From an uncultured Paracoccaceae bacterium (GTDB lineage: Bacteria > Pseudomonadota > Alphaproteobacteria > Rhodobacterales > Rhodobacteraceae), in contig CANNFE010000003.1 of assembly GCA_947503775.1 (NCBI GenBank), positions 33,501-97,500 on the forward strand: a stretch of DNA of 64,000 nt. The letters run 5' to 3'. The notes beneath the pieces are model-generated. The model had not been told where the DNA came from and made no database searches. It worked only from the letters and a program-made list of their open reading frames with translations. Shown piece by piece: positions 8,487 to 21,536 of this stretch. Positions within the stretch are counted from its first letter, which is position 1. The number at the start of each line of letters is the position of its first letter. The translations under genes and the position numbers were made by a program.

Positions 8487-9428
8487 TCAGGCCGTCCGCT
8501 TTGCGAACTTGGTATAAAGCTGCACGACGGCGTTCATATCCTTGAGCATCGTGTTGAGCATCTGAAAGGTATCGGCTTGTTCCTCGCTGGTGAGCGTCTC
8601 ACCTGCGATCAGGCGGTCGAGATAGGCCTTAACCTCGATCCAGTCGTCATTGACGAGATCAAGACCGGCGACGATTTCTGGTGTCGGGGGCGGATTGATC
8701 CCGGCATCCGGAAAGCCCGAGATCAGGGCGTTCAAGGATGTCTCGAAGAGAGACATCGTGCCCTGAAGTGTGTCGGTCGAGGCTTGCGCGGCCCCATCGC
8801 TCCACAGGTAGCAGGCTTCTTTGGAGATCTTCTGGCTGAGCATCCGCTGGCGGCCGGAGATGTCGACCAGCATGGCATCGGATTGAAGCATGGCCGCCGG
8901 ATCGGAATATTGTCCTGAAATCTCGCTGACCAGCAGTTTGGCCCGCTCCAGCAGCGGCATGTTGCCTGCAAAGATCACCTCGATCTCGGCTTTGGACAAA
9001 CCATTGGCCGCGATGCCCTCGGCCGCCTGTTTGATCGGGGCCCATTCGGTGCGCAATTCCTCGATGGCAAAGAGCGTCTTACGCCGTTCTTCGGCGCCGA
9101 TGATGTTCAGATCCGTATTCCCGATCTCGAGCGCTGTCGCGATCAGTTCGAATTCGGCGACGGTGGCATGGAGGATCTGTTTTGCGGCGTCGGGATCGTT
9201 GTCTGCCGCAAGATTGCAGGCCGCAGCCGCAATGCGCTGAGACAGCATCCGCAGCTTACCCGAGGAATCGACGCGTTCGCTCGCCCCGACATCCTCGACC
9301 AGCTGAGCCTCTAGCAGCTGTTCAGAGCCCTGTTCGGCGGGCGCTGCGGTCGTGATGAAGGAAAGCGCGATGGCAGTGCAGCCGAGCCTCATCGCGGGCC
9401 GGGTCAGACGGGCACTAGAAAACACCAT
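8487..9428 (-). CDS. Secreted protein with two PilJ-type sensor domains
   Basis: The 313-residue product has an N-terminal signal peptide (AMRLGCTAIALSFITTAAPA) and then two repeats of a helical PilJ/NarX-like ligand-binding domain. Each repeat opens with a near-identical motif: GKLRMLSQRIAAAAC in the first and GRQRMLSQKISKEAC in the second. In NarX and PilJ the equivalent 'P-box' segment forms the ligand-sensing helix. There is no output domain or second membrane helix, so it is probably a free periplasmic sensor or binding protein. The ATG at 9426-9428 has a CAGGAG site 7 nt upstream. It follows the PstS/OmpA gene and may belong with the kinase cluster; that link is inference. Confidence 0.82.
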   Translation of the reverse strand: MVFSSARLTRPAMRLGCTAIALSFITTAAPAEQGSEQLLEAQLVEDVGASERVDSSGKLRMLSQRIAAAACNLAADNDPDAAKQILHATVAEFELIATALEIGNTDLNIIGAEERRKTLFAIEELRTEWAPIKQAAEGIAANGLSKAEIEVIFAGNMPLLERAKLLVSEISGQYSDPAAMLQSDAMLVDISGRQRMLSQKISKEACYLWSDGAAQASTDTLQGTMSLFETSLNALISGFPDAGINPPPTPEIVAGLDLVNDDWIEVKAYLDRLIAGETLTSEEQADTFQMLNTMLKDMNAVVQLYTKFAKRTA

Positions 9429-9612
9429 GTGAATACTCCTGAGCAGACGGCCCTGAACCAACATGGGGGACGGCCGATGCGAGACGTTCGTTGATCGATT
9501 GAGATATCGATTTTACGTCAAGATTGAGATGTGAACCGCGCGGCCTTATGGCGTGTCCCTGCAATTGGACACAGCTGCCTTGGGGCTTTGCCGTTCGGGC
9601 TGGGCATGCAGA

Positions 9613-9649: not shown

Positions 9650-11236
9650 TCAGGCGGCGTCGCGGATCCAGATTTCGACCCGCCGGTTGATCTCTCGTCC
9701 GCGCTCGCTGGTGTTGCAGGTTGCGGGAGAAATCTCGCCGAAGCCGGTGGCGGAAATCGTGATATCGCTCAGATCGTCCCCGCCTGCGGCCCGAAGCTGG
9801 CGGGCGATCTCTTCGGCCCGAACCCGCGAAAGCTCGCGATTGCTTTCGAAGGCTCCGACATCATCGGTGAACCCGACGACGAGAACCTCGGCCCCCGAAT
9901 TCCCGTCTTTGAGATAGCTCACGAGCCGCGCCATATCGATTGCGCCTCGCTCGTCCAGGCGCGATGAGCCTGTGCGAAACCGGAAGGTGGTGGAGAGCCG
10001 GTCGTAATCGACCATTTCCGACAGCATTTCCCGCATCACACCGCCTTCGAAGTCATCGACAGTCGGATCGAGAAGCGCGCGCGCTCGGCTGCTGTCTAGG
10101 TCCTGCGCCTTGCGCTTGACCCCCAGATTGATGAAGCCCGATTTGGCGATCACGCCGTCCGCTTCGGAGGAAAGCGAATATTTCAGGAATTCCGATGTCG
10201 CCTCGTCCAGCGTGTCGACGCGATTATAGAGGTAAAGGCGGCGCTGAAGGGCATATTCCTCGGTTTTTGCGGAAAACTCATCCGGGTTCATCTGCAGCCC
10301 GCATTCGTTGACGAGCGTGATTGGCTTGGCCCCGCGCTGAAACGCATAGCCGACGAACCCGATGGCGCCCTCATCCGCGTTGACGGCGGTCGCCATGTCG
10401 TTGTTGCTGCCCGTGATCTGGGCCTGCGGCGCAACGCGGGGGGTGTCGTCTCCGAAGATTCGGCTTTCAAAGACAGACCGTGTGCCGCTTCCGTCGGGCC
10501 GCGTCATGACGTTGATCGGGCCAGCCTGGCCGCCGACATCGGCCCAGTCGGTCACATCGCCCGAATAGATCGCCTGAAGCTCGTTCAGGGTCAGCGATTC
10601 GATCGGGTTTTCGGGATGGGTGATCACCACAAGGCTGTCGATTGCGACGATATTTTCCTGGTTGGGGCTGACCATGTTACCGGCGCCCGCATCGCGCAGC
10701 GCGCGCGCTTCGGCGGGGCGGATCCGGCGCGAGGCCATCCCGACCTGGGCCTCTTTCGCAAGCAGCGCCTCGAAGGCGCGGCTGGACGTCTTGGAGTCCA
10801 CGAGGACCTTTACCATTTCATCGCCGAAGCCCCCATCGCCGACAAAGGTGGCAAGGATCTCGCCCTCGGTTTCGGTGGTGCTGATCGATGCTTCGGCATC
10901 GAGAAAGGACGCGTATCCGGACAGCATCAATGGCATGAGGCCAAGGCCGACCGTATCAGAGCCCTGAATGACGACATCGGCCGATGCGGTATCGAAGCTT
11001 GGACAAGCGGCGCCTTCGCACCGGACCCGGGCCGAGCTGACGCGCAGATCGCCGAGCGCTGTGCGAATGATGTAGTTGTTATCGGAGAACTCGATAAATT
11101 CACCGACCAGATTGACCGTTCCATCCTCAGATTTCAGGGCAACCTGATCAGCGGCTGCAAATGTCGGGGCCATGACGGCACCCGCGATTGCGATGGGATA
11201 TGCCAAAGGGCTCCCCCGTCCCTTGAAAAAACTCAT
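9650..11236 (-). CDS. PstS-like substrate-binding domain fused to OmpA peptidoglycan-binding domain
   Basis: This 528-residue exported protein has a signal peptide and a small N-terminal domain (VALKSEDGTVNLVGEF), then a phosphate-type periplasmic binding domain at ~85-385 (VIQGSDTVGLGLMPLM, TRPDGSGTRSVFE, NNDMATAVNADEGAIGFVGY). The C-terminal OmpA domain at ~415-525 contains FRTGSSRLDERG, VVGFTDDVGAFESNRELS and GREINRRVEIWI. No pstC, pstA or pstB genes accompany it, so it is not a classical transport subunit. It would be a ligand-binding protein tethered to the cell wall. It lies 245 bp downstream of the kinase/GTPase cluster, and the AT-rich gap (around 11340-11420) may hold its own promoter. 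Confidence 0.88.
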   Translation of the reverse strand: MSFFKGRGSPLAYPIAIAGAVMAPTFAAADQVALKSEDGTVNLVGEFIEFSDNNYIIRTALGDLRVSSARVRCEGAACPSFDTASADVVIQGSDTVGLGLMPLMLSGYASFLDAEASISTTETEGEILATFVGDGGFGDEMVKVLVDSKTSSRAFEALLAKEAQVGMASRRIRPAEARALRDAGAGNMVSPNQENIVAIDSLVVITHPENPIESLTLNELQAIYSGDVTDWADVGGQAGPINVMTRPDGSGTRSVFESRIFGDDTPRVAPQAQITGSNNDMATAVNADEGAIGFVGYAFQRGAKPITLVNECGLQMNPDEFSAKTEEYALQRRLYLYNRVDTLDEATSEFLKYSLSSEADGVIAKSGFINLGVKRKAQDLDSSRARALLDPTVDDFEGGVMREMLSEMVDYDRLSTTFRFRTGSSRLDERGAIDMARLVSYLKDGNSGAEVLVVGFTDDVGAFESNRELSRVRAEEIARQLRAAGGDDLSDITISATGFGEISPATCNTSERGREINRRVEIWIRDAA

Positions 11237-11481: not shown

Positions 11482-12279
11482 TCAACCTTGGGTTTCGGAC
11501 CACGCGGAAAGGATCGATCCGAGTGTTTCGGCGCGAAAAAGGAGGACGGCCGCCTCTTCCTCGGTCTCTGCGAAGCCGACCTGAAAGGCGTCGGGACCTG
11601 AATGTCCGCAGATTGCCAGACGGGCCTCGGGCAGGCCTCGCCGGATGCCGGAGATGCCCACCGTCAAGGCCGGGCCGGTCGATTTGAGGATCTTCTTGAG
11701 GTCGCTGCTGTGGTCTGTTCCCCCGGTCTCTTCGACCTTGCCGTCCGGAGTGCGGCGCACCGATGCCTCAAGATGGCGGCCGCAGATCTGCAGGAAAGTG
11801 CCAAGCGGCGATCCGGGTTCTGCGTTCAGATCGACCGACCAGGCTTGCGCCAGTGACTGCACGGAAAGACCGCTTTCCACCTGACTGCCGGGACGCTCCG
11901 TTTCAGCGGTGCGTATCGTGACCGGACCGGAGGCATTTTCGAAACGATTCATAAGCGCGGTCAGCGCCGCAAGCTGAGCGCGGTCGCCGGTCTCCAGAGG
12001 CGTCATCTCGAGATCTTTGGTCTCGGACGTGGCGATATCCTCGCTGGTTTCAGCGATGCCGAGCAGGCGGCGCCCGGCGACAATAAGCGCGAGCATCGTC
12101 TCTGCTCGCTGGAAGATCAGCTTGCGCAGCAGGACCGTCTCATCAATTTCGGTGAGCATCGCCTGCAGGGGCGGCGGGATAATACCGCGCGACAGAACAC
12201 GCGCCCCGTCCTCGCGATATTGCGTCGAGGTCGCCGCCAGGGCCGCGAGTTTGCGCGCGATATCTTCGTTTTCGTCCAT
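11482..12279 (-). CDS. Unknown protein, last gene of the kinase/GTPase cluster
   Basis: This 265-residue soluble protein has no signal peptide or membrane helix. The first 100 residues look helical and charged (QAMLTEIDETVLLRKLIFQ, AQLAALTALMNRFENA). The C-terminal half has a compact alternating pattern including GTFLQICGRHLEASVRR, PALTVGISGIRRGLPEARL and AAVLLFRAETLGSIL. I do not recognise a family. It is on the same strand as the roadblock-like gene and lies 33 bp downstream of it. By position it is a candidate regulator or partner of the GTPases. Confidence 0.72.
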   Translation of the reverse strand: MDENEDIARKLAALAATSTQYREDGARVLSRGIIPPPLQAMLTEIDETVLLRKLIFQRAETMLALIVAGRRLLGIAETSEDIATSETKDLEMTPLETGDRAQLAALTALMNRFENASGPVTIRTAETERPGSQVESGLSVQSLAQAWSVDLNAEPGSPLGTFLQICGRHLEASVRRTPDGKVEETGGTDHSSDLKKILKSTGPALTVGISGIRRGLPEARLAICGHSGPDAFQVGFAETEEEAAVLLFRAETLGSILSAWSETQG

Positions 12280-12312
12280 GGGATCAGATGTAGGCCGATT
12301 TGAGGAGATGCC

Positions 12313-12693
12313 TCATGCAACCTCTCCGCTGCTGATCCGGTCGAGACTGGGCCGCGCGGCGGCGAGCAAGCGGGCGGTGTCGACCTCGGGGCTGCAAAGG
12401 AGGCATAACAGATCGGCCGGCTCGTTCGTCGCCCTTAGAAAAAGCGTTATTCCATCGGGGGTTGCCGTCACCGCCGTATCGGCGGAATCCCCGGTCACCG
12501 ACAAGGCAGAGCTGCCCCCTGCCCCTTCGAAGAGCAACGACGCCTCGGCGCAAAGCGCATCGAGCGCCTCCTGACGGAGGATCTTGCGGCTGCTCGTGAC
12601 AAGGACCATACGGGCCGACAGATCCGCAAAGGCGATGGCACTACATTCGGGAAACTGCTCTCTCAAGCTGTCAAGGTCGTCCGATATGCTCAT
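12313..12693 (-). CDS. Small roadblock/LC7-like protein
   Basis: The product is 126 residues from the ATG at 12693; ATGs at 12702 and 12729 are also possible because none has a convincing ribosome binding site. The pattern CSAIAFADLSARMVLVTSS, a helix EALDALCAEASLLFEG, then GITLFLRATNEPADLLCLLC and a final helix is like the roadblock/LC7 fold of MglB, a partner and GTPase-activating protein of MglA. This is a fold-level guess from secondary-structure pattern, not a clear family match. Its place directly after two GTPase genes makes a GTPase-partner role plausible. Confidence 0.6.
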   Translation of the reverse strand: MSISDDLDSLREQFPECSAIAFADLSARMVLVTSSRKILRQEALDALCAEASLLFEGAGGSSALSVTGDSADTAVTATPDGITLFLRATNEPADLLCLLCSPEVDTARLLAAARPSLDRISSGEVA

Positions 12694-12765
12694 GGATACC
12701 ATTACCGAGGGGGTCTGCTCCCCTCGCATATGTCAAACGGACAGCGTTTGAAACCCCGGGCTCTC

Positions 12766-13821
12766 TTACCGCTCTCTTGACGCGGCTTCGGCATCGTCGT
12801 CGGGCTTGGTCTCGGCAAAAGTGGACCGCAGACCGGACAGTTCGGCCGCCGGACGCGTCGTGCGATCAGGGTCCGGCTGGGCTTCTGCCCCGATCTTGAG
12901 CGCGCCTGCGGTATCGACCGCATCGCGGCGGGGACGGGCCGTTCGCTCGCCGGTTGCACGAACGCGGCGCGGCGTGACGATGTCTTCTTCGCGCACTGCT
13001 TTGAGCGCACCGGGCTTGGATTGCTTGAGCGGCTGGATCCGGCGGGTCTGCTGCGGCGGCAGACGGGATTCGGGCGGCTCTGCGGTATAGAGCGGGGCCA
13101 TGCTGCGCGAGACAACCTCGGTCAGGCGCATGACCAGATCGATCAGGTGATCGGCGAAGGCATTCGCGCCGCTGGCCGCCCATTTCGCCTCGTCCTCGCC
13201 TGCAGCAAGCGCTTGGGTGAGGGAAATCGGAAAGATCGCTTCGAACATGCCTTCGGTTTCGCGTTTGACGCGGCCCAGAACGCGGTTGCGGTCACGATCG
13301 GTGAGCAGCTTGTCCCAGCGGGTGATCAGAAGCGCGCTTCGGGCCCGTACATTCGCCGGCATCGTTTCCCAGACGCCCGCCTCGCTTTGGCGCCAGGCCT
13401 GCGTGGCATGGGTACACCAGAGAACGGCATCGACCTCGGACAGCATGCGCTGCCACACATCGGCCGACATGTTCGGGTCGGAAATGCCGGGAAAATCAAT
13501 CAGATCGCAAACTTCGAGGATGTCCGCCTCGAGGAACAGGCGAATGACGCGCGTCTCTTCGACCGGGATCTGTCCGATATTCGAGAGCGAGACCTCGTAA
13601 AGCTCTCCGTCTACCGTTTCGCGATAGGCGGGGTCGGTTCCATGAGCAATCCAGACCGGCGACAGGCGGGTCGCGGTCACCTTTTCGGGCAGCGGGCGGG
13701 CGCCGAGCAGAAGGTTGGAAAGCGTGCTTTTACCCGCGCTGAACTCTCCCATCAGCGCGATGCGCGGCTTTCTCGATTTCCCGGACGTGTCCGCGATCGT
13801 CTGCATTCCGGTTTCGCTCAT
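12766..13821 (-). CDS. Dynamin-like small GTPase B with disordered C-terminal tail
   Basis: The GTPase domain fills residues ~18-235 of 351. G1 is GEFSAGKST (25-33), a Thr-rich G2 lies at 49-53 (TATRL), G3 is DFPG (109-112), and the G4 position reads TRWDK (167-171), with Arg-Trp in place of the usual Lys-x. The tail from ~245 is rich in Pro, Arg and Ser and probably disordered, and could be a kinase substrate or contact region. It aligns throughout with the other small GTPase of the cluster (for example WETMPANVRARSALLI against WSTMPDRIKDHAFLVI), so they are paralogues. It starts 3 bp after the stop of the large dynamin-like gene. Confidence 0.83.
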   Translation of the reverse strand: MSETGMQTIADTSGKSRKPRIALMGEFSAGKSTLSNLLLGARPLPEKVTATRLSPVWIAHGTDPAYRETVDGELYEVSLSNIGQIPVEETRVIRLFLEADILEVCDLIDFPGISDPNMSADVWQRMLSEVDAVLWCTHATQAWRQSEAGVWETMPANVRARSALLITRWDKLLTDRDRNRVLGRVKRETEGMFEAIFPISLTQALAAGEDEAKWAASGANAFADHLIDLVMRLTEVVSRSMAPLYTAEPPESRLPPQQTRRIQPLKQSKPGALKAVREEDIVTPRRVRATGERTARPRRDAVDTAGALKIGAEAQPDPDRTTRPAAELSGLRSTFAETKPDDDAEAASRER

Positions 13822-13824
13822 GGC

Positions 13825-15912
13825 CTAAGCCTCGACCTGCTCTTCGGTCTGAACGCCGCCCAGTTCCTCGTACATGATGCCGAGAAGCTCGTCGCGTTCC
13901 TGCTGGGCGGTGACGCCAAAGAGGCTGTTGAGCTCATCCAGGCTGACATCGGCCTTGTTGCTGATATCCATCAGGATTTCACGCTGCTCATCGATGAAAT
14001 CGTGCAGAACCTCGTCAGCGGCCTGTCTGATTTCCTCGGTCTGCTTTTGCTTGAGCTCTTCGACGATGGGCGAGGTTTCCGCCTCGATCAGCTCGTAAAA
14101 GCTTTCGGCGAAGGCGCGGTACCCCTTACGGCGCTGCCACCAGCCTTTCCACCATGCCGTCTGAAGATCGAGCGCGATGGTCTGACCAAGCGAGACCGGC
14201 GCCGGAACGGGCGGAGCGCTCGGGGGCGAAATCGTGAACCCCTCGACCGAGACGCCGCAGACATCCTTATAGGTCGCGGCAGCGTCGAAGGCGGCTTCGG
14301 AGAACACCTTTTCACAGGTGGCCGTGTAGTTGCGGCGCAGCACCTGATAGCTGGAGCGGAGCAGCATTCTGAGGCCGTTCGGGCTGTACTGCCACAGCTC
14401 GTTCTCGCCATGGGTTTCCAGATGCGTGATCAGCGATTCGAGCGCGCGGTCGAGGAACCGCTTGTGCGATTGGTCGATCCGGCTTGAGAACTGTTTGAAG
14501 ACGTTGTCGAGCCGTTCGTGCAGGACCTTGGAGGCGTTCACCTCGATCAGGTCGAGCCGTTCCTTGAGCGCGGTTTTGTCCAGCGGGGCGATCGTATCGC
14601 TCTCCAGACGCATGGAGACGACCTTGGACGAGGTCATCAGGCCGTTGACGACGTTGAGCGCGCTTTTGCGAACGTTTTCGAGAATGTCACGACCGGGTCC
14701 TTCGATCACCCGCTCGGAGAGCGCGTCGAAGAGGTGCGGAATGCCGGACAGTTGCCAGACCAGTTCGGCCGGCGAGAGGCTGGCGGCCGCATCGCCGAGC
14801 ATGACCTCGGCCCAGTTGAACATCGCGTTGGCGCTGTCGTCGACAATCTCGTGCAGGTCGCCGGAAACGGCCATATTAGCCCAATACGCGCTGCCGAAGA
14901 CGATTTCTGGATTCTCCGGCCCGTCATTGGCGGCGAGCGTTTCGAGGATACTTTCGCGGATTTCGAGGATCTGGGTGCTCGGCTCGGACAGCTCGTCAAT
15001 CCGGTTGACAAAGATCACCACCTCGCGCGCCTTGATGTTCGAGATGAGGCGCATCAGCGCCATATCCATCGAGGTCAGCGCCTGGTGGGCGGAAAGGACC
15101 ACGACGCAGATGCGGCTGTCGCGAAGGGCGTTAATCGTGACCTGCTCGCGCATCATGAACGTGTCGTTCACACCCGGCGTGTCGCGGAAGCAAAGTGGGA
15201 TCGGGAATTCGTCCTGTTCGAGATAGAGGTCGGCGGATTTGGTGATGTCGGCAAAGCGGCCCTGCTGATCGCGGATGCTTTCCTCGTCGAAATCGTCGCC
15301 CATGCAGACGTAGCGCTGAACGAGCGCCTCATCGATATGGCCGTAATCGTGCTTTTGACCGAGAAGGAGTTCGAACTTGCGGCCCAGACGTTCCTTGGTC
15401 TTTTCGCGCATATAGGCGATTTGCTGGCGGACTTTCTCAAGTTCATCATCGGCGCCGGCGCGGCTGGACAATTCTCCGAGGCGGCCACCGTTTTCGACAA
15501 GGTGGTCCCATTCGTTGCGGTCGAAGAATTGGAAGGACGCCATCGGGCTGTCCTCGGATTCGGGGGCGTTCATGTGCAGCGACGTGACAACGGAGGTCCA
15601 CGGGTTGACGTCCGCAGGCAGGAATTCCGGGCGGCCGATCATGGCGTTGACGAGCGATGTCTTGCCCGCCTTGATCTGGCCAATCATGGCGATGCTGGGT
15701 TCGATCCCCCTAAGCGTCCGCGACAATTTGCGCGTCTTCTTGGCAACCTCATCCCCGCCGATTTCCGCGATCGTGCTGAGCGTATCCTCAAGGTCGGCGA
15801 TCTCGGCGCGGAAATCCTCGAGCTTATCAAGGCCAATAGAGAGCAAAGCCGTTTGCGGCTTTGCCTTCGGCTTTACGATATCCATCGTCTGTGGCTGGCT
15901 CAGGTCTTTCAT
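13825..15912 (-). CDS. Dynamin family GTPase (695 aa)
   Basis: This is a large GTPase with G1 GQIKAGKTSL (78-87), G2 Thr in NPWTSVV, G3 DTPG (244-247) and G4 NRID (303-306), followed by about 350 mostly helical residues as in bacterial dynamin-like proteins. Near residue 585 there is a strongly aromatic and basic patch, TAWWKGWWQRRKGYR, which is a good candidate membrane-insertion paddle, then long acidic coiled-coil helices to the C-terminus. There is no classical transmembrane helix. The ATG at 15910-15912 is preferred because GGAG lies 6 nt upstream; longer forms starting at 15924 are possible. It probably polymerises on, or remodels, the inner membrane under control of the neighbouring kinase. 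Confidence 0.87.
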   Translation of the reverse strand: MKDLSQPQTMDIVKPKAKPQTALLSIGLDKLEDFRAEIADLEDTLSTIAEIGGDEVAKKTRKLSRTLRGIEPSIAMIGQIKAGKTSLVNAMIGRPEFLPADVNPWTSVVTSLHMNAPESEDSPMASFQFFDRNEWDHLVENGGRLGELSSRAGADDELEKVRQQIAYMREKTKERLGRKFELLLGQKHDYGHIDEALVQRYVCMGDDFDEESIRDQQGRFADITKSADLYLEQDEFPIPLCFRDTPGVNDTFMMREQVTINALRDSRICVVVLSAHQALTSMDMALMRLISNIKAREVVIFVNRIDELSEPSTQILEIRESILETLAANDGPENPEIVFGSAYWANMAVSGDLHEIVDDSANAMFNWAEVMLGDAAASLSPAELVWQLSGIPHLFDALSERVIEGPGRDILENVRKSALNVVNGLMTSSKVVSMRLESDTIAPLDKTALKERLDLIEVNASKVLHERLDNVFKQFSSRIDQSHKRFLDRALESLITHLETHGENELWQYSPNGLRMLLRSSYQVLRRNYTATCEKVFSEAAFDAAATYKDVCGVSVEGFTISPPSAPPVPAPVSLGQTIALDLQTAWWKGWWQRRKGYRAFAESFYELIEAETSPIVEELKQKQTEEIRQAADEVLHDFIDEQREILMDISNKADVSLDELNSLFGVTAQQERDELLGIMYEELGGVQTEEQVEA

Positions 15913-16081
15913 TTTCTGCTCCATCCTCGATCTTAGTGGCAAATGGCCTACCGATTCGTGAACGACGAACGACAAAACACTAATCAGCCTTGGTTATTCG
16001 CCTCTTTTTTCAAGAAAAACAAGGCTTAAACGTGGCAAGATTGTGTCTGCGCAGTCATCCGCGCCTCGGAAGACGCAACGT

Positions 16082-17524
16082 TCAGGCGGCCAGCCGCGAC
16101 TCGAATTCGCGTTTCATCTGTAGCAGGACCGCCAGCGCTTCGGCTGCAGCATTATCCTGTTTTTCAATTTGCATCAACTGAAGCAGGTCAGCTGCGTCAA
16201 AAGACATCTCGGCGGCCTTGGCCAAGGCCGGATCGTCATGCATGCCGAGCATGCCGAACTGATCGACAAGCTCGTTCGCGATCTCGATCGTCTCGTCGAT
16301 GATCCATTTGGGGGCGGCAGGGCCCATTTTGGGCAATTCGTTGGCCAGCTCCTGCCCTTTATCCGCCAGATAACCCACGGCCTTTTTGAAGGCGTCCCGG
16401 GTTTCGGGATGCAGCTCGACGATGTTGGAGGTGGAAGGCTCGGCGCTGTCTGCCTCTACGGCGACCTCTTCGATGGCTTCCGGTTCGGGCTCAGCCTCCG
16501 GTTTTTCAACGGGCTGGGCGACCTGGACCTGATCAGCGATTCTTAGAAGCATCCGCAGTTCCGATTTCTGGCGCGGGCGTCTGCGGGTTCGGGGGTCCGC
16601 CGATCCAGTATTCTTCTCTTCCGGTTGCGGCTCTTCGGCGGCCGGCTCGGCCAGGCGGGGCGTGGGCTCGGGGGCAGGCGCCGGAGAAACAGTCTTGGAG
16701 AGCGTCTCCTGATACTGGCGCAGCAAAATTCCTGCATTGTCCAAGGCCGATTGGCGGCCCTGCTCGACGATACGGAGGATGGCACCGATCAGCGCGCGAC
16801 CGCCGCTCGAGGTCAGCTTGGCCTTGTCGACGGAGCCGTCGGGCGCGCGCGCGCCAAGCGCCTGAAGCGTGGCGATCGGATAGATCCCCTGGAAATCCTC
16901 AGCTGCCATGGCGGCCAGATCGGCAAGACGATCCTGAAGCGCGCCTGCGGCAGCCAGCTCGTCCGCCTTGCTGATGACCAGAAATGCATGATCCTTGATG
17001 CGGTCAGGCATGGTCGACCAGAGCGCCTGTTCTTCATCGTTGAATGTCTGCGAGCACCAGATCGCGATATCAGTGCGGCGCGTGGCCCAGCCAAGCGCGC
17101 GGCGGCGGTCACTGACCTCAGGGCCCATGACCACCTCGAGGACGGAGATCTTGTCGAGTGCGGGCAACTGCATCTCAAGGCGGACGAAAACCGGAGCGCA
17201 GGCCGCGATTTCGGCGGCATCGATCGGCTCCACCACTTGTTCGGTGCCGTCGCGCAATGTGCAGATCGCGCGGTTCCTGTCGCCTTTGACAACCCAGAGG
17301 CTGGGCATCCGGATGCCTTCGGGAACGACGGAGGCGCCGGTCAGGAAATTCGTGAGGGTGGACTTACCGGTTCCGGGCAAGCCCATGACGGACAGGCGCA
17401 CAGGCTCTCGCAGATGCGACAGGTAGCTTTTGGCCTGCTCGGCGACGGCATCGGGAAAGATCCCGGAGGCCAGTCCCTTGTCGAGGGCGGCGCAGATCTC
17501 CTGTTCGGATCTGGCTGCGCTCAT
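16082..17524 (-). CDS. Dynamin-like small GTPase A with degenerate switch II
   Basis: The 480-residue protein has G1 GLPGTGKST (48-56) and G4 SKAD (185-188), but the G3 DxxG motif is missing: the aligned stretch reads VLEVVMGPEVSD where the paralogous GTPase has ILEVCDLIDFPGISD. It may bind nucleotide with little hydrolysis. Residues ~270-350 are Pro/Glu/Ala-rich linker. The C-terminal ~110 residues form a helical domain (AFKKAVGYLADKGQELANE, then EIANELVDQFGMLGM). The start overlaps the PP2C stop by 4 bp (ATGA). Together with GTPase B and the dynamin it suggests a three-GTPase complex. Confidence 0.84.
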   Translation of the reverse strand: MSAARSEQEICAALDKGLASGIFPDAVAEQAKSYLSHLREPVRLSVMGLPGTGKSTLTNFLTGASVVPEGIRMPSLWVVKGDRNRAICTLRDGTEQVVEPIDAAEIAACAPVFVRLEMQLPALDKISVLEVVMGPEVSDRRRALGWATRRTDIAIWCSQTFNDEEQALWSTMPDRIKDHAFLVISKADELAAAGALQDRLADLAAMAAEDFQGIYPIATLQALGARAPDGSVDKAKLTSSGGRALIGAILRIVEQGRQSALDNAGILLRQYQETLSKTVSPAPAPEPTPRLAEPAAEEPQPEEKNTGSADPRTRRRPRQKSELRMLLRIADQVQVAQPVEKPEAEPEPEAIEEVAVEADSAEPSTSNIVELHPETRDAFKKAVGYLADKGQELANELPKMGPAAPKWIIDETIEIANELVDQFGMLGMHDDPALAKAAEMSFDAADLLQLMQIEKQDNAAAEALAVLLQMKREFESRLAA

Positions 17525-18729
17525 TTAGTTCCCCCGGCCACGCGAAGCGGAGCCTCTTCGGACGGACTAGCCTCGGAATCTGCACTCTCGACCGTCGTTT
17601 CTGTCGCCGAAGCAGACGCATCGACGGGCGCGACTGGATCCTCGGACAGCGTTTGAGGGGCTGCCTCGGTCTGCACCGGCTCTGGCTCGTCTGCGCTTTC
17701 CGCGCTCGCCTCTTTCGCTTCGGGCGCAGGCACGGAGACGGGCGGCACCTGGATCGGAGGCGCTTTTCCGCTGGCTTCGGGCTGGGTCGCGGCGAAGACC
17801 GGCGGCGTCTGAACCTTACGTTCGATGGGCGCTTCGGGATCGACCTTCATTGCGACGTCGGGCGTGACCAGACGCGTGGTTGCGGCGCTGGCTTCGACAT
17901 AGTCGATCGGCTTGGGCGCGACCTTCTGCTCGGTCGGCTTCATGTGGTTCATTTTGATGACGGAAAACGAGATGTTGTCCTGATCGGGATCGGCCAGACC
18001 GTCGAGCGCCTCGAGCAAGTAGCCTGCGATTTCCGCACTGCGACGGCGGCGATAGCGGTGGAGGATCTTCTCGATCTTGGCTTCCTCGAGATACTGAAGG
18101 CCGTCGCTGGAGACGACGACGATGTCGCCCAGCTTGAGCTCGAACGGCTTTTTCGGGCAATCGCTGCGCGCGACCTTTTCACCCAGAATAACCGATGTGA
18201 GACAGTTGCGGTCGGGGTGATTCTTTCCCGTCTCGGGATCGAGTAGGCCCGATTGCACCATGAAGTCGATTTGAGGCGCCATCGAATGGTCTTCGTTCAA
18301 CTGGCTCATCTTGCCGCCGCGATAGTGGTAAAGCGGCGAGTCCCCGATCGACATCCAGTACATGCGGTTCTCGACCAGAACGAGGGAGACGAGCGTAGCG
18401 CCCATTCCGCGGGTTTCCGGGTTTTCCTGAACGTGACTGCGGACGCAATCATTCGCGATCGTCGCCGCCTCGGTCATCATGTCCGGGATCTGATGTTCCA
18501 GCTGGAAGAGGTTCGCACTTTGGAACTTGAGCTCGCTGAAGACCTCGGTCACGACGATCTTGCTGGCGACGTCACCGGCGGCATGGCCACCCATTCCGTC
18601 GGCCAGGACGGCCAGACCGGTATCGGCACCGAAGGGGAAATCGGTGATGATGGCATCTTCTTGGTAGTCACGTCCGCCCTGGGCTATCGCCGAGGCGACA
18701 TCAAAGCGGGGTTCAGGCGATCGCCACAT
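17521..18729 (-). CDS. PP2C-family serine/threonine phosphatase with acidic C-terminal tail
   Basis: Residues ~10-255 form a PP2C domain with the metal-binding landmarks RDYQEDA (20-26), LADGMGGHAAGDVASK (42-57), WMSIGDSPLYHYRGG, VVSSDGLQYL and DQDNISF. It should remove phosphate from Ser/Thr residues modified by the adjacent kinase. The final ~130 residues are rich in Pro, Ala and Glu and look disordered. The ATG at 18727-18729 has AAGGAG 7 nt upstream and overlaps the end of the FHA gene by 17 bp, so the phosphatase and FHA reader are translationally coupled. The kinase/FHA/PP2C trio is known from type VI secretion and mycobacterial signalling, but here it is joined to GTPases. Confidence 0.92.
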   Translation of the reverse strand: MWRSPEPRFDVASAIAQGGRDYQEDAIITDFPFGADTGLAVLADGMGGHAAGDVASKIVVTEVFSELKFQSANLFQLEHQIPDMMTEAATIANDCVRSHVQENPETRGMGATLVSLVLVENRMYWMSIGDSPLYHYRGGKMSQLNEDHSMAPQIDFMVQSGLLDPETGKNHPDRNCLTSVILGEKVARSDCPKKPFELKLGDIVVVSSDGLQYLEEAKIEKILHRYRRRRSAEIAGYLLEALDGLADPDQDNISFSVIKMNHMKPTEQKVAPKPIDYVEASAATTRLVTPDVAMKVDPEAPIERKVQTPPVFAATQPEASGKAPPIQVPPVSVPAPEAKEASAESADEPEPVQTEAAPQTLSEDPVAPVDASASATETTVESADSEASPSEEAPLRVAGGTK

Positions 18730-19543
18730 CGTCGCTCTCCTTGGAGTCTGGCTTGTCGGACCAGTTGAAAGTCTCGTTGCAGAGGCCGACGAAACGCAGC
18801 GTCGTGTCTCCGATTTTAATTGAGTCGCCATCCGCAAGCGGTTCGGTGCTGACGACGGGAGCATCGTTCAGGCGAACGATGTTGGATTTGCCGCCGTGGC
18901 CCAGAAGAAACTTATGGGTTTCAGCATCATAGACGATGGCAGCATGATTGGTGCGCGAAATGGCGTTGTCGCCGAAATCGAGCTGAACGGTCTGGTCTTC
19001 GCCGCGTCCGATCTGGCTCATCCCGGAATAGAGGGCGAAGGATTCGCCCCGGCCCGGACCGTCGGTGACGACGACCCAGCCGACCGGGAAGGTCGCGCGC
19101 TGGGTGACACGGACGGTGCTTTCGGGATCGAAGAGGTCGACGACATCGGTCGCGGATTTCTCAAAGCCGATCAGACGGGTCTTGGCCCGGCCGGGACGGC
19201 GCTTGCTGCGGCCGGCGATGGGTTCGGGGATGCTGACCGCGTCCTTGACCGGAGCGGGCGCAATCGGTTCTGGCAGCGCATCGCTGTCCTCGCCATCCAT
19301 GTCCCAGATGTTGACCGGGGCCGGCGTGGCCTGAGGCGCTGGGGCCTCTTCCTGAACCTCGGCACTGACCTTGCCGATGACCTCGGTCGACTTCTGTTCG
19401 CCCACGAAGGGCGGGATCGTCGTGTGCGGCGGAACGCGAACAGTCGGATGAGGCTGCGGTTCGAGCCGACGCGACATCGCGCTATCGTCACCACCCTTTT
19501 GAGTGGAGGACTTCTTGGCGATCAACTGGCGAATGAACTTCAT
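18713..19543 (-). CDS. FHA-domain phosphothreonine-binding protein
   Basis: The C-terminal FHA domain (about residues 155-255 of 276) retains the phosphopeptide-contact residues: Gly-Arg in SQIGRGED (179-180), SRTNH (196-200) and an Asn in KSNIVRLND (221). The N-terminal 150 residues are Pro/Thr-rich and probably flexible, with Thr-Val/Thr-Thr clusters that could themselves be phosphorylated. A good ribosome binding site (AGAGGAG) precedes the ATG. The protein should dock onto a phosphothreonine made by the adjacent kinase and recruit GTPases or other partners; the partner identity is inference. Confidence 0.9.
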   Translation of the reverse strand: MKFIRQLIAKKSSTQKGGDDSAMSRRLEPQPHPTVRVPPHTTIPPFVGEQKSTEVIGKVSAEVQEEAPAPQATPAPVNIWDMDGEDSDALPEPIAPAPVKDAVSIPEPIAGRSKRRPGRAKTRLIGFEKSATDVVDLFDPESTVRVTQRATFPVGWVVVTDGPGRGESFALYSGMSQIGRGEDQTVQLDFGDNAISRTNHAAIVYDAETHKFLLGHGGKSNIVRLNDAPVVSTEPLADGDSIKIGDTTLRFVGLCNETFNWSDKPDSKESDDVAIA

Positions 19544-19571
19544 CGTTACATCTCCTCTGACTGAGCGGGAA

Positions 19572-19597
19572 CGGGATCGGATCCTTCAGGGATCCCG
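19572..19597 (-). promoter_or_regulatory. Hairpin between kinase and FHA genes (possible attenuator or mRNA stability element)
   Basis: A perfect 7-bp stem CGGGATC/GATCCCG encloses a second possible GGATCC/GGATCC pairing. It is in the 61-bp gap between the kinase stop and the FHA start and is not followed by a T-run. It may adjust kinase-to-FHA stoichiometry. Confidence 0.35.
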
Positions 19598-19604
19598 AAC
19601 CATA

Positions 19605-21536
19605 CTACTCAATAGCGCCTTTCGGAATATTTAGCGACGCCACCCACATGGAGCCCTCGCGCTGAACTGCAAACGTGAGCCGGTCGAGGGCGGACGAAAG
19701 CTCGCGTCGTGCGATGGTTTCGACCGCTTCCGGCTCGGTGATACGGCGATTGGTCGGCATGTAGGCGACGAGAACGTCCCCGACAGCCAGATCGGTTTCG
19801 ATCCCCTCTGCGAGGGCCGTGACGGTGGTGATCCAGCTCTCGCCATCGAAGCGAGATTGAAAGCGCGTGTCCTCGAAGATCGCCGTTTCATAGACGACGG
19901 GGAAGATCGTGTCGTTCGAAAGCGCCGCGCCCGATGGATCCTGCACACCAAGTTTGACCGACACCTGCGCCTCGTCCGCGAGATCGACCGTGTCTGAGAT
20001 CGCGGGCGCGAGCGGGGCGTTATTGCCCAGGGCGACGCCGTTCACGGACACAATTCGTTGACCGATGGAGGCCCAGTCTGGCGCGGCCTCTCCGAGGTCG
20101 GAGATGACATTGCCGCTGGAGAGCGAAAACGGGAGCGCGACGGTCCATTCACTCTGGATAGAGGACGCGTCGGTCGTATCGGCCTGCGAGACCGACGGGG
20201 CGGCATCGGCCGCAGCCTCCGGTTCGGGCAACAGGATCGTCATCGCGGATTGGTCCGGCTCAGCCGCAGCGGGCGCGGCAGTCTGTGCGGTTGAGGCGGG
20301 CGCTGGGGCCTCGACTTCGGGCGCAGGCTGCGGTTCTGCGGTCTGGACGGGAGCGACCGGTTCAGGCGCGGTCTGCACGGCAGGCACCGGGTCGGCCGCA
20401 GGTACGTCGTCGCTGCCCGACTGCGTCAGGACGATACCGCCGATGGCGATAAGCGCGATGGCGGCTACGGATGCGAAGAGAACCGGGCGCGGCAGATCCT
20501 CGATGAAGGCGAGAGGCGACACTTTCTCCGGCGCGGGCTTGGGCGCGGCACCCTCGACCTCGGGCGTCTCGACAGGTTGATCCGAGGACAGCGGCAGAAC
20601 GATCGCCTCCTCCCCGTCCATCATGCGGATCCAGTCCTTGACCGACTGCAAGCGCTTCTTTGGAAGCACCGCGAGCGCCTTGTCGATCGAGGCCAGCACA
20701 GCCTCGGGATACTCGTCAAAGCGGCCTGCAAGCGGCTCGTAGGGGTCCGGATCACCCGAGGCGATGGCGGCCAGGCGCGCCTGACTGTTCGACGGAACCT
20801 CGCCCGTAATCACGTGATAGAAAGAGGCGCCGAGCGCATAAAGATCGCTCCACGGGCCCTGCTCGCTGCCCGCGATATAGAATTCCTGTGGGGAATAGCC
20901 GTCCTTGACCACCCGCATGGCAGACAGAACGCGCGTCGTCTTGGTCGCCTGTTCGCGCGCGGCGCCGAAATCGATGAGAACCGGCTTGCGGTTGCCATCA
21001 AGGAGGATGTTATCGGGGGAGATGTCGCGGTGCAGCATCTCCTGGCTGTGGATGAAGCCGACAGCATCCAGAAGCTGGCGGAGAATATCCTCTACCTCTT
21101 CGGGGGAAAGCGGATCCGCCGAATCCTCGATCCGGTCGAGCATGTCGGGACCTTCGACAAAATCGAGGGCCATATAGGCGGTGTCGTTATCCTCAAAGAC
21201 CTGATGGACGCCGACGATATTGGGATGATTGAGCTTTGCGAGGCTGCGCGCCTCCTGGACGAATAGCTTGACGATCGACTTCAGCTCGGACTGATGCGCG
21301 CGGGAGCGGGCCTGCACGATGGCCCGGCTGCGGCGGCAAAAGGCGCCTGGAAAACACTCCTTGATGACGATCTTCCGATCGAGACTATCGCGCGCAAGAT
21401 AAGTGATCCCGAAGCCGCCGGCATTCAGGAAGCATTCGATCGTATATTGCCCATGCATGAGCTTTGTGCCGGGAGAGAGTTCGTCGACGACGTCCTCCGG
21501 ATCACCGGTCTGATCGACTTTCTGCGCAGTTACCAT
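19605..21536 (-). CDS. Transmembrane Ser/Thr protein kinase with periplasmic sensor region
   Basis: This is the first gene of the cluster and encodes 643 residues. The cytosolic kinase domain (~30-315) has a glycine loop NAGGFGITY (first Gly of the usual motif is Asn), catalytic Lys59 in IVIKE, Glu95, HRDISPDN (169-176), DFG (189-191) and SPQE in place of APE, so it looks active. One transmembrane helix follows at ~351-371. A Pro/Ala/Glu-rich spacer leads to a periplasmic region with two PDZ-like stretches (IGQRIVSVNGVALG and LAVGDVLVAYMPTNRRI). By domain order it should sense an envelope signal and phosphorylate cytosolic partners, which the FHA protein reads and PP2C reverses. Confidence 0.92.
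   Translation of the reverse strand: MVTAQKVDQTGDPEDVVDELSPGTKLMHGQYTIECFLNAGGFGITYLARDSLDRKIVIKECFPGAFCRRSRAIVQARSRAHQSELKSIVKLFVQEARSLAKLNHPNIVGVHQVFEDNDTAYMALDFVEGPDMLDRIEDSADPLSPEEVEDILRQLLDAVGFIHSQEMLHRDISPDNILLDGNRKPVLIDFGAAREQATKTTRVLSAMRVVKDGYSPQEFYIAGSEQGPWSDLYALGASFYHVITGEVPSNSQARLAAIASGDPDPYEPLAGRFDEYPEAVLASIDKALAVLPKKRLQSVKDWIRMMDGEEAIVLPLSSDQPVETPEVEGAAPKPAPEKVSPLAFIEDLPRPVLFASVAAIALIAIGGIVLTQSGSDDVPAADPVPAVQTAPEPVAPVQTAEPQPAPEVEAPAPASTAQTAAPAAAEPDQSAMTILLPEPEAAADAAPSVSQADTTDASSIQSEWTVALPFSLSSGNVISDLGEAAPDWASIGQRIVSVNGVALGNNAPLAPAISDTVDLADEAQVSVKLGVQDPSGAALSNDTIFPVVYETAIFEDTRFQSRFDGESWITTVTALAEGIETDLAVGDVLVAYMPTNRRITEPEAVETIARRELSSALDRLTFAVQREGSMWVASLNIPKGAIE

Follow-up and report, generated by a model that had tools for sequence, protein, structure and literature searches.

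A recurrent operon joining a Ser/Thr kinase, an FHA protein and a PP2C phosphatase to a predicted dynamin in Rhodobacteraceae

What activates bacterial dynamins is, to our knowledge, a largely open question. A 64,000-nucleotide stretch of DNA from an uncultured Paracoccaceae bacterium (assembly GCA_947503775.1, contig CANNFE010000003.1, positions 33,501 to 97,500; here, the window) raises the question of whether a protein kinase could do so: running from 21536 to 11482 on its minus strand, the list of open reading frames (ORFs) and their translations give eight ORFs in the order KIN-FHA-PP2C-sGup-DYN-sGdn-RB-P0001, named below. We find that this operon is recurrent and not a chance cluster. 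Its arrangement would likely allow the cell to start and stop membrane remodelling through protein phosphorylation, and we consider it about an even call whether the operon is a switch, under the control of phosphorylation, that serves to tether or repair the inner membrane. Gene content, linkage, the conservation of a threonine motif and the degenerate G3 motif of one GTPase can be read from sequence. Searches of the literature by titles and abstract openings, with most subscription journals and preprints outside their coverage, returned no account of such an operon; its parts are of known kinds, and their union in one system was not found in the papers searched. For one bacterial dynamin, the operon points to a kinase, a phosphatase, a phospho-site, an adaptor and GTPase regulators as candidates. 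Culturable roseobacters such as Yoonia vestfoldensis (L042 and L046) carry it, so that dynamin activation can be put to a direct test by deleting single genes and altering one phosphosite.

19605..21536, minus strand: Ser/Thr kinase (KIN, P0008), 643 amino acids (aa); Pkinase 112.9 bits against a cut-off of 31.7
18713..19543, minus strand: FHA adaptor (FHA, P0007), 276 aa; FHA domain at residues 178-245, 27.6 bits against 20.7
17521..18729, minus strand: PP2C phosphatase (PP2C, P0006); PP2C_2 41.3 bits against 24; the ORF opens at 18864 and the likely true start is internal (Met46, 18729)
16082..17524, minus strand: upstream small GTPase relative (sGup, P0005), likely a pseudo-GTPase; 29% identical to P0003
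13825..15975, minus strand: dynamin-like GTPase (DYN, P0004); Dynamin_N 48.8 bits against 27; likely true start internal (Met22, 15912), the relatives listed being about 690-705 aa
12766..13821, minus strand: downstream small GTPase (sGdn, P0003); Dynamin_N 44 bits against 27
12313..12729, minus strand: roadblock-like protein (RB, P0002), by hhalign to the Robl_LC7 profile
11482..12279, minus strand: P0001, an N-terminal part followed by a candidate C-terminal roadblock-like domain

A first-pass annotation, made from the letters alone, had described eight same-strand genes at 11482-21536, in agreement with the ORF list in both coordinates and strand. The kinase, FHA, PP2C and dynamin identities that it gave are borne out, each protein scoring over its Pfam cut-off, and the two small GTPases are indeed paralogues that align over 232 columns at 29% identity (E 6e-18).

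Recurrence and linkage of the eight genes

To define how widely the arrangement is shared, we scanned genome contigs and obtained 80 named loci, with genes identified by our own ORF calling and iterated hidden Markov models (HMMs); all gene-order counts depend on the ORF caller and HMM thresholds used. The exact order KIN-FHA-PP2C-sG-DYN-sG-RB-P0001, in which sG denotes a small GTPase, occurs in 46 of the 80 loci, and the 34 others include contig ends, loci without an adjacent kinase and rearranged Leisingera loci. A tree of 104 DYN rows, computed by a quick method from dynamin ORFs of 550 to 820 aa and without locus L219, places the DYN of the window in a branch of 55 rows (Shimodaira–Hasegawa-like approximate likelihood ratio test, 100). 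The exact order is found in 35 of these 55; seven of the 20 misses are flagged contig ends, and the rest reflect a gene left unrecognised by the ORF caller or HMM threshold, or the lack of an adjacent kinase. At least two of the kinase, FHA and PP2C genes lie within 9 kb of the dynamin in 54 of the 55 rows, the sole exception being L170, with a contig end 537 bases from its start. The co-occurrence for which the first-pass annotation had proposed a neighbourhood survey is recurrent, with near-absolute linkage of the trio in this branch.

The family-wide distribution is patchy. In an even draw of this marine family, 80 of 296 genomes (about a quarter) carry a DYN relative. A draw across the class gave matches in 8 of 337 genomes, full-length in two, both family members, and short generic GTPase matches in the other six. 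Among 61 genomes, 11 of which have DYN, RB is present in nine, all within those 11 (p 3e-9), and FHA also in nine, seven of them within the 11; these p-values ignore kinship. The idea that loci without an adjacent kinase have lost the gene was set aside; a close kinase is encoded elsewhere in all eight genomes concerned, an observation of little weight. Plasmid copies account for 20 records (18 at 80% coverage or more; 12 from Leisingera and five from Ruegeria), all typed as non-mobilizable, and a Leisingera caerulea plasmid carries the full eight-gene set by order, with family names given to five genes and the other three labelled hypothetical. By its DYN the host is close to Aestuariibius insulae (97%). 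In L152 (G266:C1), the dynamin gene is broken into two ORFs.

A threonine motif ahead of the FHA domain

The phospho-signalling proteins carry four short features that bear on how the trio may work.

20925..20936, minus strand: activation-loop motif TRVL of KIN (residues 201-204), resembling the FHA-protein motif
20427..20483, minus strand: predicted transmembrane helix of KIN (residues 352-370; Kyte-Doolittle mean 2.75 over 19 residues)
19163..19180, minus strand: TRLIGF motif of the FHA protein, with Thr122 as the predicted phospho-switch site, ahead of the FHA domain
17857..17877, minus strand: TRLVTPD motif in the C-terminal tail of PP2C

The motif TR[LVIM][IL]GF is present in 118 of 124 operon FHA proteins and in none of 2,698 other ORFs of the stretches. 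These proteins come from a pooled set in which three loci are each present twice (L029/L136, L053/L137 and L081/L140); without the doubled loci, the count is 115 of 121. The motif lies 146-169 residues (median 154) from the C-terminus in proteins that range in length from 107 (cut) to 697 residues, and shuffled FHA tails contain its longer form in 0.3 of 72. As in the GarA/OdhI type, a conserved threonine open to phosphorylation precedes the FHA domain by a nearly constant distance. Judged by sequence, the motif is likely both the kinase site and the FHA switch, and its GarA/OdhI-like position before a C-terminal FHA domain suggests a switch that reads itself. GarA and OdhI fold back on themselves and carry an ETT motif, and FHA domains show a preference at the +3 residue. 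The GarA/OdhI-PknG-GlnX-GlnH line of Actinobacteria resembles the present system in its kinase and FHA protein with a conserved threonine ahead of the FHA domain and, at some loci here, in a nearby solute-binding protein; it differs in that the motif here is TR[LVIM][IL]GF, not ETT, and in that PP2C and GTPases are linked here. Against equivalog models the FHA protein gives weak matches only (OdhI, 23.7 against 200 bits; FhaB, 30.9 against 125).

KIN passes the Pkinase cut-off and has the HRD (at 169) and DFG (at 189) of a Hanks-type kinase. The hydrophobicity rule that gives its transmembrane helix also places one past residue 300 in 71 of 114 KIN relatives, and the C-terminal part of KIN is predicted to be periplasmic. 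PDZ_6 matches 11 of the 23 kinases aligned; P0008 itself has no match at E 0.1. The activation-loop motif, as [ST]R[VIL][LIV] within 30 residues of DFG, occurs in 73 of 115 kinases, with RAL instead in 25 of the other 42; its likeness to the FHA motif is only suggestive. Another kinase of this family, 55% identical, is encoded in the host as well (G000:C10:30794-32149, loci L229 and L280), one ORF from another PstS-OmpA gene.

PP2C matches Stp1_PP2C_phos (1.2e-42, 146 bits) below the equivalog cut-off of 230. Counting proteins with DGMGG or DAMGG and tails of at least 15 residues, TR[VLI][VLI]x[LMIVP][DEN] occurs in 41 of 126 PP2C tails against 0.06 expected from shuffles (40 of 123 without the doubled loci); 39 of the 41 belong to the window or to scan loci of close relatives. 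We rejected a TR motif common to all operon proteins: sGup, sGdn, RB, P0001, DYN and KIN contain its long form no more often than shuffled sequences do. The short form TR[LVI][LVI] runs at about twice the shuffled level in DYN (17 against 9.8 of 91) and KIN (12 against 5.7 of 65). The motif stands out only in the FHA protein and in the PP2C tail of close relatives.

The threonine-phosphorylation pathway of type VI secretion systems (T6SS; PpkA, PppA and Fha, with TssL in Agrobacterium) likewise consists of kinase, PP2C phosphatase and FHA protein, identical in composition to the trio here (PMC3953482). The trio could act at a distance on a T6SS of the host, whose VipB lies on contig C7 (G000:C7:89158-90066), 17 kb from a distant kinase (C7:106987-107484) and separate from the operon. 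The first-pass statement that no secretion components are present therefore holds for the operon neighbourhood and not for the host genome. VipB is present in 5 of the 11 DYN-bearing genomes among the 61, never on the DYN contig and hence never in or beside the operon; it is absent from the other six, and its association with DYN is slight (p 0.14 across the 61 genomes and 0.09 across 37 genomes of the family). On the TagH/VI_FHA model, whose cut-off is 120.25, the FHA protein reaches 12.7 bits, and no T6SS gene adjoins the operon. Given this score and the six carriers without VipB, we rejected T6SS control as the principal explanation and regard it as highly improbable.

The dynamin, its small GTPases and the roadblock-like proteins

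G1, DxPG and G4 are present in all 174 DYN relatives. The predicted DYN model (predicted local distance difference test, 86.1; predicted template modelling score, 0.87) has its best Foldseek match in the bacterial dynamin-like protein BDLP (2j69, E 1.5e-15), and shows a BDLP-type helical neck and trunk with a membrane paddle. The candidate paddle is a loop set between the long trunk helices of the model:

14110..14196, minus strand: Trp-rich basic loop, predicted membrane paddle, within residues 594-622, WWKGWWQRRKGYR

Across 61 aligned dynamins, W608, W609 and W612 are nearly invariant. On this model DYN would be a dynamin of the BDLP/mitofusin class that tethers or repairs the inner membrane, and the predicted fold fits the earlier suggestion of a system that remodels or guards that membrane. 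BDLP, the Campylobacter dynamin-like protein pair, SynDLP and mycobacterial IniA differ from the present system, in which the partner of DYN is a stalkless small GTPase and a kinase, an FHA protein, PP2C and roadblock-like proteins are added.

The first-pass annotation had counted three dynamin-like GTPases, which stands for DYN. Among the three GTPase relatives, only P0004 has a dynamin trunk: P0003 and P0005 both lack the stalk, P0003 has no significant BLASTP similarity to P0004, and P0005 reaches the Pfam cut-off of no GTPase family. The two small proteins also diverge from each other in their motifs. The catalytic G3 motif DxPG is absent in 123 of 124 sGup relatives, and in 21 of the 124 the P-loop is absent as well; sGdn keeps DxPG in 159 of 163 copies. 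With the doubled loci removed, DxPG is missing from 120 of 121 sGup and 4 of 160 sGdn proteins. In the branch of the window, 50 of 51 sGup proteins lack DxPG and 17 of 51 the P-loop, whereas P-loop and DxPG are intact in all 52 sGdn proteins. Judged by these motifs, sGdn is likely an active GTPase and sGup its pseudo-GTPase partner.

The roadblock-like identity proposed at first pass for RB is supported by profile comparison (hhalign to Robl_LC7, probability 66.9, E 5.3e-5, 115 columns) and not by Pfam, in which Robl_LC7 matches none of 23 members. When run on 581 short ORFs, the Robl_LC7 HMM picks out 13, namely 12 RB and one protein from another roadblock-like family; 136 RB are among the 581, and most of them it misses. 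P0001, formerly an unknown protein, may have a C-terminal roadblock domain, predicted with moderate support from a match at the level of the domain fold:

11485..11820, minus strand: predicted roadblock domain of P0001, residues 154-265

No Pfam roadblock model matches P0001, and comparing the RB and P0001 profiles with PDB sequences gave nothing convincing. Both the dynamin and the roadblock folds are model predictions. A further short roadblock-like family occurs near dynamins at eight loci (for example, L148:4480-4836, L199:7068-7427, L201:123-497 and L206:12342-12716); its L148 member has no Pfam match.

Roadblock proteins encoded beside small GTPase relatives are reminiscent of MglA/MglB and Rag/Ragulator, although the GTPases here are Era/dynamin-like by sequence, neither MglA-like nor Ras-like, and the P0001 fold match is moderate. 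Sets of roadblock regulators, pseudo-GTPases and dynamins are otherwise thought of as eukaryotic or Asgard-like; here they come together in one bacterial operon.

A proposed membrane switch and its genomic surroundings

From these features we infer a direction of signalling and a membrane role. The predicted periplasmic, often PDZ-like part of KIN would read an envelope signal, in some species through neighbouring PstS-OmpA and PilJ proteins. Active KIN would phosphorylate the FHA protein at the threonine of TR[LVIM][IL]GF (Thr122 here), and the phosphothreonine would be bound by an FHA domain, either its own or that of a second copy, changing the partners of the adaptor, with PP2C resetting the switch. 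The adaptor may then act on the GTPase/pseudo-GTPase pair, whose cycle the two roadblock-type proteins would set as MglB does for MglA. Finally, the pair would license the BDLP/mitofusin-class dynamin to assemble on the inner membrane through its Trp-rich loop. Two layers of control on one dynamin are likely. That this is the first bacterial route from a membrane Ser/Thr kinase to a mitofusin-class dynamin, by way of an FHA switch that reads itself and a GTPase/pseudo-GTPase pair that two roadblock proteins gate, is possible, if on balance doubtful; if true, it would be a bacterial counterpart of the layered control on eukaryotic membrane fusion GTPases.

Two sets of observations weigh against such a switch. 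The first is that sister branches contain related DYN-sG pairs without KIN, FHA or PP2C; in the nearest (10 rows), no trio gene lies nearby and typical loci read DYN-sG-DYN-sG. The first-pass notion of a stand-alone module is in part refuted by these pairs, while in the branch of the window the linkage is near absolute. Examples of this sister system are L199, L200, L203, L205, L206 and L208 and, with annotation, Rhodobacter sp. CZR27 (NZ_CP023549.1:817-7665); its two dynamins per locus are split between two separate branches. Because of the sister loci and of re-ordered loci that retain the trio (L189, L193, L198 and L218, with the same parts re-ordered in Ruegeria sp. AD91A), DYN-sG looks like the core of the system, RB-P0001 and KIN-FHA-PP2C like linked sub-units, and phospho-control like an added layer.

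Such pairs would be expected if the operon were two separate devices under one promoter: a trio for nutrient signalling of the GarA/OdhI kind, and a self-controlled GTPase/dynamin unit. The widest gap of the operon, upstream of DYN (15976-16081 here; median 140 bases in 35 loci), would suit this division, and a stretch of it conserved in Yoonia loci is perhaps an internal promoter that could serve the dynamin unit. A conserved RNA in this gap was considered and rejected on an alignment judged by eye only, and a promoter and terminator scan gave matches no commoner than in shuffles. A solute-binding protein near the kinase likewise recalls the GlnH-GlnX-PknG line (PMC6069109 and PMC8546545). 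Yet the trio adjoins the dynamin throughout the branch of the window save for L170, and the median overlap of PP2C with sGup is 4 bases (35 loci). G003 has its parts scattered over three sites (DYN-sG-DYN-sG; KIN-FHA-PP2C-sG; RB-P0001-PstS-OmpA-PilJ), both dynamins falling outside that branch, and all parts are nonetheless present; we count this co-retention without linkage in favour of the phosphorylation-controlled switch and consider two separate devices unlikely.

The second is that mreB starts 100-330 bases past P0001 in seven relatives of one lineage (L142, L147, L152, L153, L154, L156 and L160), and in L147 and L153 Pfam identifies mreC and genes for a penicillin-binding protein (transpeptidase) and a RodA/FtsW protein next in line. 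This neighbourhood hints at envelope growth, and the operon could be a growth, polarity or division module in which the roadblock/GTPase pair gives a spatial cue of the MglAB kind and the membrane at growth sites is shaped by the dynamin; the pairing of roadblock MglB with the small GTPase MglA (PMC6785124) is the precedent. The mreB neighbourhood is confined to one lineage in the stretches examined and may reflect a single event, such as one insertion, and by sequence the small GTPases do not look MglA-like. We hold such a module to be quite improbable.

A third alternative is an anti-phage or abortive-infection module in which the kinase would detect infection and the dynamin hold back lysis; its precedent is DynA of Bacillus subtilis, which delays phage lysis (PMC8844932). 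The patchy presence of DYN relatives in the family (80 of 296 genomes) would suit a defence role, but the first-pass suggestion of a response to phage gains no positive support here. Of the PADLOC defence library, scanned against ten window proteins, LeoA and LeoBC weakly match DYN, and PD-T4-6 models match KIN as kinases in general. LeoABC and DynA are alike to DYN as dynamin-like GTPases, and we know of no phospho-module linked to either. DYN scores 14.5 bits on NCBIfam DLP_LeoA_gen, far from the cut-off of 325. The window flanks are ordinary genes (AlgH-like, DsbD_N, an RND pump and an acyl-CoA dehydrogenase), the only flanks scanned for defence genes, and ORF sizes suggest the same neighbours at many Yoonia loci. 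A defence module therefore seems rather unlikely, and we retain the phosphorylation-controlled switch.

Two further genes past P0001 are optional companions of the operon.

9650..11236, minus strand: P0010, a PstS-like binding domain fused to OmpA (PBP_like_2 2e-30, OmpA 3.6e-13), candidate periplasmic partner, optional
8487..9464, minus strand: P0011, PilJ-domain protein after P0010 (PilJ 8.8e-28), optional

Relatives of P0010 occur in 17 of 175 stretches, 16 with a copy of at least 500 aa, and relatives of P0011 in 13. In Marivita (L065) the PstS-OmpA and PilJ proteins precede the kinase, and among eight stretches around non-operon kinases PstS-OmpA adjoins the kinase in L274 and lies one ORF off in L280, the second kinase of the host. 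A TTAACA-18-TATAAT site stands at 11406-11377, by P0010 and P0011, in a promoter scan that is at shuffle level overall. In L101 the operon is followed, at 13711-17405, by genes for a response regulator, a histidine kinase and an autoinducer synthase; relatives of this response regulator and histidine kinase are found in 6-7 even-draw stretches.

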